Assembly: GCF_000689395.1 (NCBI RefSeq)
Contig: NZ_HG966617.1
Coordinates: 1,064,753 to 1,128,752, forward strand
Origin: Candidatus Phaeomarinobacter ectocarpi
GTDB taxonomy: Bacteria; Pseudomonadota; Alphaproteobacteria; CGMCC-115125
DNA: 64,000 bases
Direction of reading: 5' to 3'
Within the stretch, counting starts at the first letter, position 1, and each line of letters starts with the position of its first letter. Position numbers and translations under genes: made by a program. The notes below the pieces were generated by a model, which was not told the DNA's origin, did not search any database, and worked only from the letters and a program-made list of their open reading frames with translations. Below are positions 35,498 through 38,665 of the stretch, one piece after another.

Positions 35498-37004
35498 AGG
35501 ACTGATGGAAATGGTCAAGGTCGCCAAAGCGCGTCAGTTCCGCCTGGAATTGCAGCTCAACCCGGCCCGTAGGGCCGTGGCGCTGCTTGCCGACGATGAC
35601 TTCAGCCTTGCCAAAAACCTGATTGCACTTGTCCTGCCAGGCCAGATGTTCCGGCGAGTCTGCGCTTGGCTCCGCACGAAGGAGATAATACTCCTCGCGA
35701 TACACAAACATCACCACGTCGGCATCCTGCTCAATCGAGCCGGATTCACGCAGGTCAGAGAGTTGCGGACGTTTGTCCTCACGCTGTTCAACCTGTCGAG
35801 AGAGCTGGGACAGGGCAAGAATGGGAACGTTCAGCTCCTTGGCCAGCGCCTTGAGCCCCGTCGTAATGGCCGTCACTTCCTGTACGCGATTGTCCTGGTT
35901 CTTGCCCGACGACGTCACGAGCTGCAGATAGTCCACCACAATCAACTGCAGGCCCTGCTGGCGCTTCAGCCGCCGCGCCCGGGCCGCAAGGGTGGCGATG
36001 CCGATGCCGCCCGTATGGTCGATAAACAGGGGGATCGATTGAAGCATCTCGGTGGCTTCACGCAGCTGCCCAAATTCATCAGCTGTAATCTCACCGCGGC
36101 GGATCTTTTCAGATGAGATGCCGGAGTGTTCAGCCAGAAGACGCGTTGCCAGCTGCTCAGCCGACATTTCAAGCGAGAAGAAGGCCACGACACCGCCATC
36201 GCTGACGACTTCGCGCCCATTGTCGTCAATCTGCTTCTGGTACGCCTTGGCGGCATTGAAGGCGATGTTTGTCGCCAGCGCTGTTTTGCCCATGGAGGGG
36301 CGTCCGGCGAGAATGATCAGGTCAGAATTCTGCAGACCACCCAGTTTGCCGTCGAGATCGCGCAGGCCGGTTGAGAGGCCAGAAAGCTTGCCTTCTCGCT
36401 GGTAAGCCGCGGCTGCCATATCCAATGCCGTCGTGAGCGACGATTTGAAAGGCATGAATCCGCCTTCATAGCGGCCTTTTTCGGCGAGGTTATAGAGCGA
36501 GGACTCAGCATTCTCGATCTGCTGCGATGGCGGCAGGTCAATCGGGCTGTCTTCCGCAGTCACCTGAATATCTTCGCCAAGGCGGATCAACTCGCGCCGC
36601 ACCGCCAGATCATAGATGGCGCGGCCATAGTCCTTGGCATGGGGCGTCGCTACCGCAGCTGCAGCCAGCCGGGCGAGGTAAGCAGGGCCGCCCACATCTG
36701 CCAGCGCGCTGTCATGGTCGAAATAGGCCTTGAGGGTCACCGGTGTCGCAAGGTGACCCCCGACGACCAGTTGCGCCACAGCTTCAAAAATGCGCGCGTG
36801 CAACGGCTCATAGAAATGATCCGGCGATAGGAACTCGGAGACCCTGTCGTACGCCTCGTTGTTGACCAGGACAGCCCCCAGCAGCGCCTGTTCCGCCTCA
36901 ATAGAGTGCGGCATCTCGCGGTACTTTATGCCGTCGAAATCCGGATCGGGTGCGTCATCAGGCATTGGGCCGGATGGGGGGAAGGCGGTCGGTGCAGGTT
37001 CCAT
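35484..37004 (-). CDS. dnaB: Replicative DNA helicase DnaB
   Basis: The protein has 506 residues. The N-terminal domain (HSIEAEQALLGAVL) is followed by the RecA-fold helicase domain with Walker A GRPSMGKTALATNIAFN and FFSLEMSAEQLATRLLAEHSG-type motifs, then DYLQLV and a C-terminal QRHGPTGRVELQF. It is the hexameric helicase of the replisome. No intein is present. The 315-bp upstream gap carries a duplicated DnaA-box/GANTC module that could govern its expression. Confidence 0.97.
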   Translation of the reverse strand: MEPAPTAFPPSGPMPDDAPDPDFDGIKYREMPHSIEAEQALLGAVLVNNEAYDRVSEFLSPDHFYEPLHARIFEAVAQLVVGGHLATPVTLKAYFDHDSALADVGGPAYLARLAAAAVATPHAKDYGRAIYDLAVRRELIRLGEDIQVTAEDSPIDLPPSQQIENAESSLYNLAEKGRYEGGFMPFKSSLTTALDMAAAAYQREGKLSGLSTGLRDLDGKLGGLQNSDLIILAGRPSMGKTALATNIAFNAAKAYQKQIDDNGREVVSDGGVVAFFSLEMSAEQLATRLLAEHSGISSEKIRRGEITADEFGQLREATEMLQSIPLFIDHTGGIGIATLAARARRLKRQQGLQLIVVDYLQLVTSSGKNQDNRVQEVTAITTGLKALAKELNVPILALSQLSRQVEQREDKRPQLSDLRESGSIEQDADVVMFVYREEYYLLRAEPSADSPEHLAWQDKCNQVFGKAEVIVGKQRHGPTGRVELQFQAELTRFGDLDHFHQSYEGP

Positions 37005-37319
37005 CGACTAACTTGTAAACCATCACCAATCGACTTTCAGCCATCTCCACCCATTCCCGTGTTTTTTGCACCGAAATGATATCCACAGGCTGTGGATGAT
37101 GTGCACGACTCACTCCAAGTGATTCTTTTGACTCATGAATCTGACGGCAGCCGGTTCCTAGCCGCACGCAAAAGGAGACCAGGTCAGACGCCTGTCCCGT
37201 CATCGCCGATTCAACCTACCTATTTGAATTTGGCCTGTGGATAGTCTCCGCGATTCACTGCAACCGATTCATTTGACTCACAAATAGAGCCTGCAGCCCT
37301 CCGGCCCAGCTAGTTCATG
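37005..37319. promoter_or_regulatory. dnaB upstream region with DnaA-box and GANTC modules
   Basis: No gene is seen in these 315 bases. There are three 8-of-9 matches to the DnaA box: ATATCCACA (37079-37087), TGTGGATGA (37091-37099) and TGTGGATAG (37236-37244). The first two form a perfect inverted repeat with 8-bp arms and one central base (37081-37097). Eight GANTC sites lie at 37107, 37121, 37130, 37137, 37208, 37252, 37266 and 37275. Most of this belongs to two copies of one module. Confidence 0.8.
37090..37280. repeat. 46-bp imperfect direct repeat (DnaA box plus three GANTC)
   Basis: Copies are at 37090-37135 and 37235-37280, with about 36 of 46 positions identical and a 145-bp offset. 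Each has a TGTGGAT core, then 7 bp after the 9-mer the first of three GANTC sites, with identical internal spacing (14 and 9 bp between starts). One difference falls on the free N of GANTC. Confidence 0.85.
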
Positions 37320-38573
37320 TCACACATGCATTTGCCTGTGAGGGCCCGCCTGTGTTGTGCCCTCACGGTCGCGAAAACCCTCCTCGGCTTTGGCGATGTA
37401 GGACCGCGTCAACGGCACGGTCCCGACCTTCTTGGTCAGTTGGATCTGAAATACCATGAAACCCATGTGGCGGAATGAGGCTTCGGAGGCAGCAAGATAG
37501 AACTCCCACATCCGGCAGAAGCGTTCGTCATACACTTCTGCGGCCCGGCCTCGGTTGGCGGCAAAGCGCTCCCGCCAGTGACGCAGTGTGTCTGCGTAAT
37601 GGAGCCTGAGAATTTCGACATCGGTCACAAAAAGGCCCGCGCGTTCAATGCTCGGCAGGACCTCACTGAGAGCCGGAATATAGCCACCGGGAAATATGTA
37701 CTTCGCGATCCAGGGATTAGTTGTTCCCGGCCCGTCGATGCGTCCAATGGAGTGAACGAGCGCCACCCCATCCTCGTCAAGCAACCGCGCCACCTGCCGG
37801 AAATACTCCCCGTAGTGGCCCACACCGACATGCTCGAACATGCCCACGGAGACGATCCGGTCAAAGCAGGAATCAAGCTCGCGATAATCCTGAAGCTTGA
37901 ACCGGACGCGGTCCTTGCGATCGAGGGCATCCGCGCGGGCGTTTGACACCGTGTACTGCTCTTGGGAGAGGGTGACACCGGTCACATCCACGTCTGCCAT
38001 CTGGGCCAGATAGAGCCCAAGCCCACCCCAGCCGGACCCGATATCGAGCACGGTATGGCCGGGCGCGAGCGCCAGCTTGGCGGCAATGTGACGTTTCTTG
38101 GCCAGTTGTGCGTCGTCCAGAGACGCCAAAGGGTCCTCGAAATAGGCGCAGGAATATTGCCGGTCAGGATCAAGAAAAAGATCGTAAAGGCGTCCATCCA
38201 GGTCGTAATGATGCGCCACATTGGCCCGCGCCCGGCCGACCGGATTGTACTGCAGGATGCGCCGGTAAAATCGGCGGATCCCGGCGATCAACGCAGCCAG
38301 TGGTGTGCCATACCCGGTGCCAACATTGCGGCCCAGAAGGTCCATCAAGTCCCAGATATCACCCTCAGTGATATGAAACCGACCCTCCATATAGCCTTCG
38401 CCAAATTTGAGATGGGGGTTAAAGGCGATTGCGCGCCCGATCGAGCGGTCACGCAGGTGCAGTGTGACACGCGGTTCAGATCCGTCCCCGGCGGTCCATA
38501 ACCGTCCGTTTGCTTCGTGGACCGTCAGGTCGCCTGTTTTGACCACATATTGCAGCATCCATCTGAGGAACAT
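37320..38573 (-). CDS. cfa: Cyclopropane-fatty-acyl-phospholipid synthase
   Basis: The protein has 417 residues. The SAM motif VLDIGSGWGGLGLYLA, the ANVAHHYDLDGRLYDLFLD segment, YSCAYFEDP and a C-terminal FGMF/EHVGVGHY region mark the CFA family. It methylenates unsaturated phospholipid acyl chains at the inner membrane. The ATG at 38573 has GGAGG six bases upstream, better than the ATG-less extension to 38597. It lies between dnaB and rplI, where most relatives have nothing. Confidence 0.93.
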   Translation of the reverse strand: MFLRWMLQYVVKTGDLTVHEANGRLWTAGDGSEPRVTLHLRDRSIGRAIAFNPHLKFGEGYMEGRFHITEGDIWDLMDLLGRNVGTGYGTPLAALIAGIRRFYRRILQYNPVGRARANVAHHYDLDGRLYDLFLDPDRQYSCAYFEDPLASLDDAQLAKKRHIAAKLALAPGHTVLDIGSGWGGLGLYLAQMADVDVTGVTLSQEQYTVSNARADALDRKDRVRFKLQDYRELDSCFDRIVSVGMFEHVGVGHYGEYFRQVARLLDEDGVALVHSIGRIDGPGTTNPWIAKYIFPGGYIPALSEVLPSIERAGLFVTDVEILRLHYADTLRHWRERFAANRGRAAEVYDERFCRMWEFYLAASEASFRHMGFMVFQIQLTKKVGTVPLTRSYIAKAEEGFRDREGTTQAGPHRQMHV

Positions 38574-38665
38574 CACGCACCTCCGCTGGCCGGCCACTCA
38601 TGGTTGCCGGTCTAAAGCCCAGCCCCTACGCGAAAGTCTAAGCCCAAAAAGGCGCGACACACCAT

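Follow-up and report, generated by a model that had tools for sequence, protein, structure and literature searches.

Studies of the alphaproteobacterial cell cycle usually handle DnaA and CcrM methylation as separate inputs. Hottes reportedly found in 2005 that transcription of dnaB depends on DnaA in Caulobacter crescentus (cited in PMC8203912). At the origin of Vibrio cholerae chromosome 2, the iterons are Dam-methylated. C. crescentus dnaB is reported to have predicted DnaA boxes upstream and to belong to the DnaA regulon (PMC8203912). GcrA-dependent promoters are crippled if GANTC is mutated (PMC3667746), and multiple GANTC lie within 50 bp at just 11 of the 96 cell-cycle start sites of Caulobacter that carry the motif (PMC4287350). 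The repABC-Ch2 promoter of Agrobacterium has three GANTC sites, and the effects of CcrM and GcrA on it have been studied (PMC11514494). In the literature that we searched, dnaB is not reported to be under GANTC control.

Here we describe an array of DnaA boxes and GANTC sites upstream of dnaB in Candidatus Phaeomarinobacter ectocarpi. The window is the whole 64,000-nt stretch that was analysed (1064753-1128752 on a single 3,415,905-bp contig that starts at dnaA); the genome was published as a circle of 3.4 Mbp with dnaA as its point of orientation (PMC4110880). The array region is the 315 bp that separate dnaB from a gene of the cyclopropane-fatty-acid-synthase type (Table 1). We compared it with G001, G002, and G003, which together with the window genome are all four available species of the marine genus Ca. 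Phaeomarinobacter. Their DnaB proteins are 90% (G001), 100% (G002, rounded), and 93% (G003) identical to that of the window genome. A first-pass annotation of the window had invoked CcrM methylation, and ccrM is indeed in the genome, as is gcrA: it encodes a CcrM-type RAMA protein (4e-20) and GcrA (9e-55).

Table 1. Features of the dnaB array, its neighbors, and site B (window positions unless marked as genome)
Feature	Position	Strand	Basis
dnaB, replicative helicase, 506 aa	35484..37004	-	Pfam DnaB_C 5e-103, DnaB N-terminal domain 4e-29
Promoter-like site TGCACA-18-TATCAT	37076..37105	-	consensus match; spacer contains the head-to-head DnaA pair
Head-to-head DnaA-box pair ATCCACA-GGC-TGTGGAT	37081..37097	.	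perfect inverted pair; inner 15 bp = TCCACAGSCTGTGGA
Proximal module M2, GATTC-N2-GAGTC-N4-GAATC-N9-GAGTC-N9-ATCCACA	37091..37141	-	sequence; conserved in G001, G002, G003
Isolated GATTC between modules	37208..37212	.	GANTC scan; G002 lacks this site
Distal module M1	37236..37279	-	sequence; same spacing in G002 and G003
Cyclopropane-fatty-acyl-phospholipid synthase family gene, upstream neighbor	37320..38597	-	Pfam CMAS 9e-90
Site B	genome 2213304-2213577 (L117:2304-2577); L116, L115, L114 in relatives		pattern search, four species

Architecture of the dnaB array

The module, GANTC-N4-GANTC-N9-GANTC-N9-ATCCACA, is present in two copies upstream of dnaB. The first-pass annotation had described a duplication offset by 145 bp, and a repeat search agrees with it exactly: two 51-nt copies, 76% identical, start at 37090 and 37235. 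The distal module has GAGTC at 37275, GAATC at 37266, and GAATC at 37252, with its DnaA box core (TGTGGAT) at 37236-37242 on the plus strand. The proximal module has GANTC at 37137, 37130, 37121, and 37107, with its core at 37091-37097, also on the plus strand. With the isolated site at 37208, this gives eight GANTC sites in 173 bp, as had been counted. A single GANTC differs between the modules (GAATC versus GAGTC), and the difference does fall on the free base, as previously stated. The perfect inverted pair of DnaA boxes is also there as described, and the head-to-head arrangement (ATCCACA-GSC-TGTGGAT) is found in all four species.

The distances from GANTC to the DnaA box are fixed at 37, 28, and 14 bp in every dnaB module. 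The fourth proximal site (37137) is probably a module component as well, judging from its positions in relatives: GATTC occurs at the equivalent place, within one base, in both copies in G003 and in the single copy in G001. The distal copy in the window genome lacks it. One GANTC in the proximal module of G003 has decayed and reads GAGAC.

The only promoter-like match in 36900-37500 is the site in Table 1. TATSAT and the 18-bp spacing are found in all four species, and the -35 match is poor (4/6). In all four species, the head-to-head DnaA boxes lie inside the spacer of this putative dnaB promoter. GANTC sites adjoin the promoter-like site and are conserved beyond their flanks. The extended GcrA motif YGAKTCK fits two of the eight GANTC sites in the window genome; the promoter-adjacent GANTC reads TGAATCG in G001 and G003, so YGAKTCK is not conserved there. 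There was no Rfam match that would indicate a structured RNA, and neither the dnaB array nor the second array described below contains a full CtrA site.

Conservation within the genus

In each of the four species, the array directly precedes dnaB, so the module is kept in the close relatives, where the first-pass annotation had suggested looking for it. There are two copies in the window genome, G002, and G003, and one in G001, which could be either the older state or the result of a deletion between the repeats. The 145-bp spacing is kept in all three two-copy genomes; the DNA between the modules in G003 can hardly be aligned with the window genome. At four-fold sites of dnaB, the difference from the window genome is 0.31 for G002 and 0.65 for G003, and it is 0.55-0.65 in distant species pairs.

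We scored identity to the window genome column by column, pooling the dnaB array and site B. The fixed bases of GANTC were identical at 60/60 positions in G002, 48/60 in G003, and 36/40 in G001, and the DnaA boxes at 39/40, 39/40, and 24/24. For the free base of GANTC, the counts were 14/15, 11/15, and 6/10, and for other columns, the identity was 0.75, 0.54, and 0.52 (89/172 in G001). With the two arrays pooled, fixed GANTC columns were more conserved than other columns in G001 (p = 3e-6) and in G003 (p = 1e-4). In these alignments, it is the recognition bases of GANTC and the DnaA box that are kept, and the free base is nearer to its surroundings in conservation, clearly so in G001. This conservation supports selection on the fixed bases and on the DnaA boxes, and it bears out the earlier suggestion that the methylation site is the part being kept.

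GANTC density

GANTC is strongly depleted in the 64-kb window (88 observed versus 265 expected from dinucleotide shuffles). We drew the cluster statistics from 864 kb of stretches of the 3.4-Mb genome, in which the background is 1.2 GANTC per kb. By a Poisson estimate, about 1e-5 clusters of the density of the dnaB array are expected genome-wide, or 0.005 if the intergenic density of GANTC were tripled. The dnaB cluster is the densest in the 864 kb, and no other cluster there reaches eight. A general enrichment of GANTC-N4-GANTC can be rejected: there are 14 such places in the window genome versus 21 for the reversed control pattern. What stands out is only the combination of GANTC-N4-GANTC and a DnaA box.

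Clusters of GANTC, or DnaA boxes, are found at further places as well. Upstream of ccrM (L053:2702-2799; L052, L054-L057), there are 5-7 GANTC in about 120 bp in all six genomes viewed, and TTAA-type CtrA-like sites are interspersed in several of them. Five GANTC in about 135 bp lie upstream of a gene for a ChvI-like response regulator (genome 274847-274978; L080). Between an aminopeptidase-like gene and a gene for a large membrane protein, there are six in 157 bp, with a GTTAAC/GTTAAG pair (genome 943414-943570; L084). An intergenic TTATCCACA adjoining a thioesterase-like gene has four GANTC around it (genome 1924560-1924625; L120), with a spacing unlike that of the dnaB array and site B. Two oppositely oriented TTATCCACA boxes lie upstream of gcrA (genome 314430-314550; L002), along with a separate inverted repeat, ACCACAACATCTC...GAGATGTTGTGGT, that encloses a GTTAAC site; this arrangement is also found in G001 and G003.

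DnaA boxes at dnaB outside the genus

The first-pass annotation tied the array to dnaB. DnaA boxes also recur upstream of this gene in other families, which supports that link. Across 26 loci from other alphaproteobacterial genera, we found 17 DnaA-box cores in the 250 bp upstream of dnaB versus 1.1 expected, a contrast that is somewhat inflated because the expectation comes from the rest of the same loci, which is mostly coding. GANTC was weakly enriched at these 26 loci (20 versus 14 expected, p = 0.08). Among 289 alphaproteobacteria, the exact module turned up only within the genus. Of 385 genomes, 24 contain the 15-bp palindrome TCCACAGSCTGTGGA. These include the four species of the genus, where it lies at dnaB; of the remaining 20, three (families f42, f43, and f61) likewise carry it directly upstream of dnaB, there without GANTC arrays.

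DnaA input at dnaB thus looks ancestral, and the GANTC layer is, by this comparison, specific to the genus. Because the DnaA boxes recur across families, the simplest account would be that the DnaA input was inherited and that the genus overlaid it with a GANTC lattice. The boxes upstream of dnaB across Alphaproteobacteria also fit the DnaA boxes and DnaA dependence reported for Caulobacter dnaB (PMC8203912).

A second array, site B

We searched the four whole genomes for GANTC-N4-GANTC-N(6-34)-TCCACA. In every species, this pattern matched only the dnaB region and one other place, which we call site B; the reversed control pattern had zero matches in the same genomes. In the window genome, site B has three units of approximately GATTC-N(29-30)-GACTC-N4-GACTC-N13/14-TTATCCACA, the third with one GANTC fewer. 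The units are offset by 114 and 91 bp, and the offsets in G002 and G003 are the same within 1-2 bases. G001 has two units, 146 bp apart. There are accordingly three DnaA boxes in three of the species and two in G001, all in one orientation. Unit 1 (L117:2304-2356) also contains an inverted repeat, GCGGAT...ATCCGC, which is GCAGAT...ATCTGC in G003; the paired change suggests that the dyad is kept.

Site B is 3' of an ELM1-like gene (Pfam Mito_fiss_Elm1). In G001, G002, and G003, what we take from its translation to be a peroxiredoxin gene starts 187-279 bp after the last box, and this gene has its own palindromic upstream element, TTAGAAGAATTCTAA or near it. In the window genome only, a 1.1-kb pair of genes (L117:2600-3670), presumably TetR-like and SnoaL-like from their translations, separates site B from the peroxiredoxin gene; the pair is absent from this place in the other three species. 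The palindrome stays with the peroxiredoxin gene beyond this insertion. Both genes that flank site B in the window genome point towards the array. We rejected the idea that site B was originally a convergent intergenic region, as the next gene in the three other species is the peroxiredoxin gene, in the same direction. Site B is probably not a promoter, given this setting. In a related genome (G243), ELM1 adjoins the peroxiredoxin gene, with a similar palindrome and without an array, so site B would most simply have been gained within the genus.

With the E. coli consensus for IHF and up to one mismatch allowed, site B had no match and the dnaB array a single one-mismatch site. The two arrays are on opposite arms of the chromosome, at 0.72 (dnaB) and 0.63 (site B) of the replichore.

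Origin of replication

In Caulobacter, the gene order at the origin is hemE-oriC-DUF299. In the window genome, hemE (3293875-3294891) and a gene that we take from its translation to be of the DUF299 type flank a candidate oriC at about 3.295 Mb (3294900-3295400; L130), which contains several GANTC, ATCCACA, and a GTTAAC...TTAACC pair. Nearby, at about 3.2806 and 3.2826 Mb, are parS-like palindromes (TGTTTCACGTGAAACA). The GC skew switches near the candidate oriC and near 1.55-1.6 Mb, and the analysis found no switch at dnaB (1.10 Mb), which is 1.22 Mb from the candidate oriC. The suggestion in the first-pass annotation of an origin-like element at dnaB is therefore not supported, and we rejected the dnaB array as an origin on the basis of hemE/DUF299, the parS-like sites, and the skew switches.

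Proposed role of the arrays

Both types of site are present and conserved at dnaB, together with a promoter-like site, and the genome has ccrM and gcrA. We propose that the array may be a DnaA- and CcrM/GcrA-responsive control region of dnaB, and we put the chance of this at about one half. If so, DnaA would bind the head-to-head boxes between the -35 and -10 of the dnaB promoter as well as the distal-module box that lies 145 bp further upstream, and DnaA occupancy would gate the promoter, most simply by blocking RNA polymerase. Late in the cycle, CcrM would methylate the GANTC sites that lie directly upstream of the promoter. Passage of the fork through dnaB, at about 72% of its replichore, would leave these sites hemimethylated. 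Together with sigma70, GcrA would read the methylation state and set the strength of the promoter. Helicase synthesis would thereby be coupled to both DnaA and the methylation clock. We infer that these proteins bind; the sign of each effect and the timing in the cell cycle are likewise predicted.

The main rival to the dnaB-promoter reading comes from site B. Because the second array lies away from an evident promoter, the combination of sites need not serve transcription, and the view of the array as a putative replication-clock switch for dnaB, which the first-pass annotation had favored, is complicated by this apparently promoter-less array. Both arrays could instead be chromosome-level sites that regulate DnaA, functionally like datA, DARS, or clusters of DnaA boxes: they would titrate, inactivate, or recharge DnaA, the GANTC sites would make this methylation-dependent so that the arrays switch at fork passage, and the dnaB array would merely overlap a promoter. 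We consider this a tentative alternative, somewhat doubtful as a whole. It would account for the genome-wide search finding these two loci alone in every species and none for the reversed control, for the two or three units of site B 3' of the ELM1-like gene without an evident promoter, for the ELM1 and peroxiredoxin genes of G243 being adjacent without an array, and for the location of the arrays on opposite arms; head-to-head boxes are also typical of DARS (PMC10380432). However, the dnaB palindrome lies upstream of dnaB elsewhere without GANTC arrays, which points to a promoter function there, the boxes of site B share one orientation, unlike DARS, a good IHF consensus is missing at site B with just the one-mismatch site at the dnaB array, and both arrays are far from oriC. 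A more specific version, that the arrays are a paired, methylation-gated DnaA control system with one array per arm, in which CcrM methylation determines how well they can bind or convert DnaA, seems unlikely to us. If it were true, the paired arrays would give these Alphaproteobacteria an equivalent of datA/DARS under the reading of the CcrM clock.

DnaA might also control dnaB while the GANTC sites serve something unrelated to DnaA, such as activation by GcrA only, or the loading of CcrM/GcrA at two places. Families that lack the GANTC cluster also have DnaA boxes at dnaB, which implies that the two layers have separate histories, and ccrM, the chvI-like gene, and other genes have GANTC clusters mostly without DnaA boxes. 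On the other hand, the fixed spacing from GANTC to the box in every dnaB module suggests a joint structure, and the combination is near-absent elsewhere while the same pairing recurs at site B, so we regard this separation as quite improbable. Tandem DnaA-box modules with methylation sites do look iteron-like, but with the candidate oriC at about 3.295 Mb, parS-like palindromes near it, and skew switches that are not at 1.10 Mb, a secondary origin or origin-like element has very little in its favor. As for a chance cluster or a recent tandem duplication without function, G001 does have only one module, but the expected count of about 1e-5 and the selective conservation in four species make this scarcely credible, and the conservation pattern refutes it.

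Comparison with known systems

If the two arrays are compared with E. coli datA, DARS1, and DARS2, they are similar in being intergenic groups of DnaA boxes away from oriC (PMC10380432). The dnaB array shares the head-to-head orientation of DARS boxes I and II (PMC10380432), which the boxes of site B do not have. Against the three essential DnaA boxes of datA, site B has three boxes in three species and two in G001; against the single IHF site of datA at a set spacing, it has no match with up to one mismatch to the E. coli consensus. Unlike datA and DARS, these arrays appear to have GANTC in place of IHF/Fis sites, and the dnaB array overlaps a promoter-like site. Because the boxes of site B have one orientation and IHF-type sites are absent or weak, we do not file either array as datA or DARS. 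The iterons of V. cholerae chromosome 2 also combine initiator-binding repeats with adenine methylation sites, but the initiator and the methylase are different, and the dnaB array is not an origin.

The dnaB array resembles the CcrM/GcrA promoters of ctrA (P1), mipZ, podJ, and ftsZ in having GANTC near a sigma70-type promoter, with CcrM and GcrA encoded (PMC3667746, PMC4287350, PMC3973325). Unlike those Caulobacter promoters, it has seven or eight GANTC in a fixed lattice with DnaA boxes. The Agrobacterium repABC-Ch2 promoter and ori2 likewise have GANTC in the control region of a replication gene, but ori2 is a RepC-dependent secondary origin, and the sections of PMC11514494 that we drew on report no lattice of DnaA boxes.

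A close parallel is C. crescentus dnaB, which also has DnaA boxes directly upstream and where DnaA is a transcription factor for replication genes (PMC8203912). Control of dnaB by DnaA is thus already known in Caulobacter, and the DnaA part of the array agrees with it. Unlike Caulobacter dnaB, the array has a head-to-head pair within the spacer of a promoter-like site, and its module is duplicated, with the two copies together holding seven GANTC at set spacing. What is new is that, in all four species, the arrangement is found at just one other place, site B, which has no tie to a promoter. The pair of arrays suggests a genus-specific wiring of DNA replication to the methylation clock. It also provides a small natural system for testing whether methylation state alters DnaA binding, and whether Alphaproteobacteria possess chromosomal sites that control DnaA, as E. 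coli does with datA and DARS.
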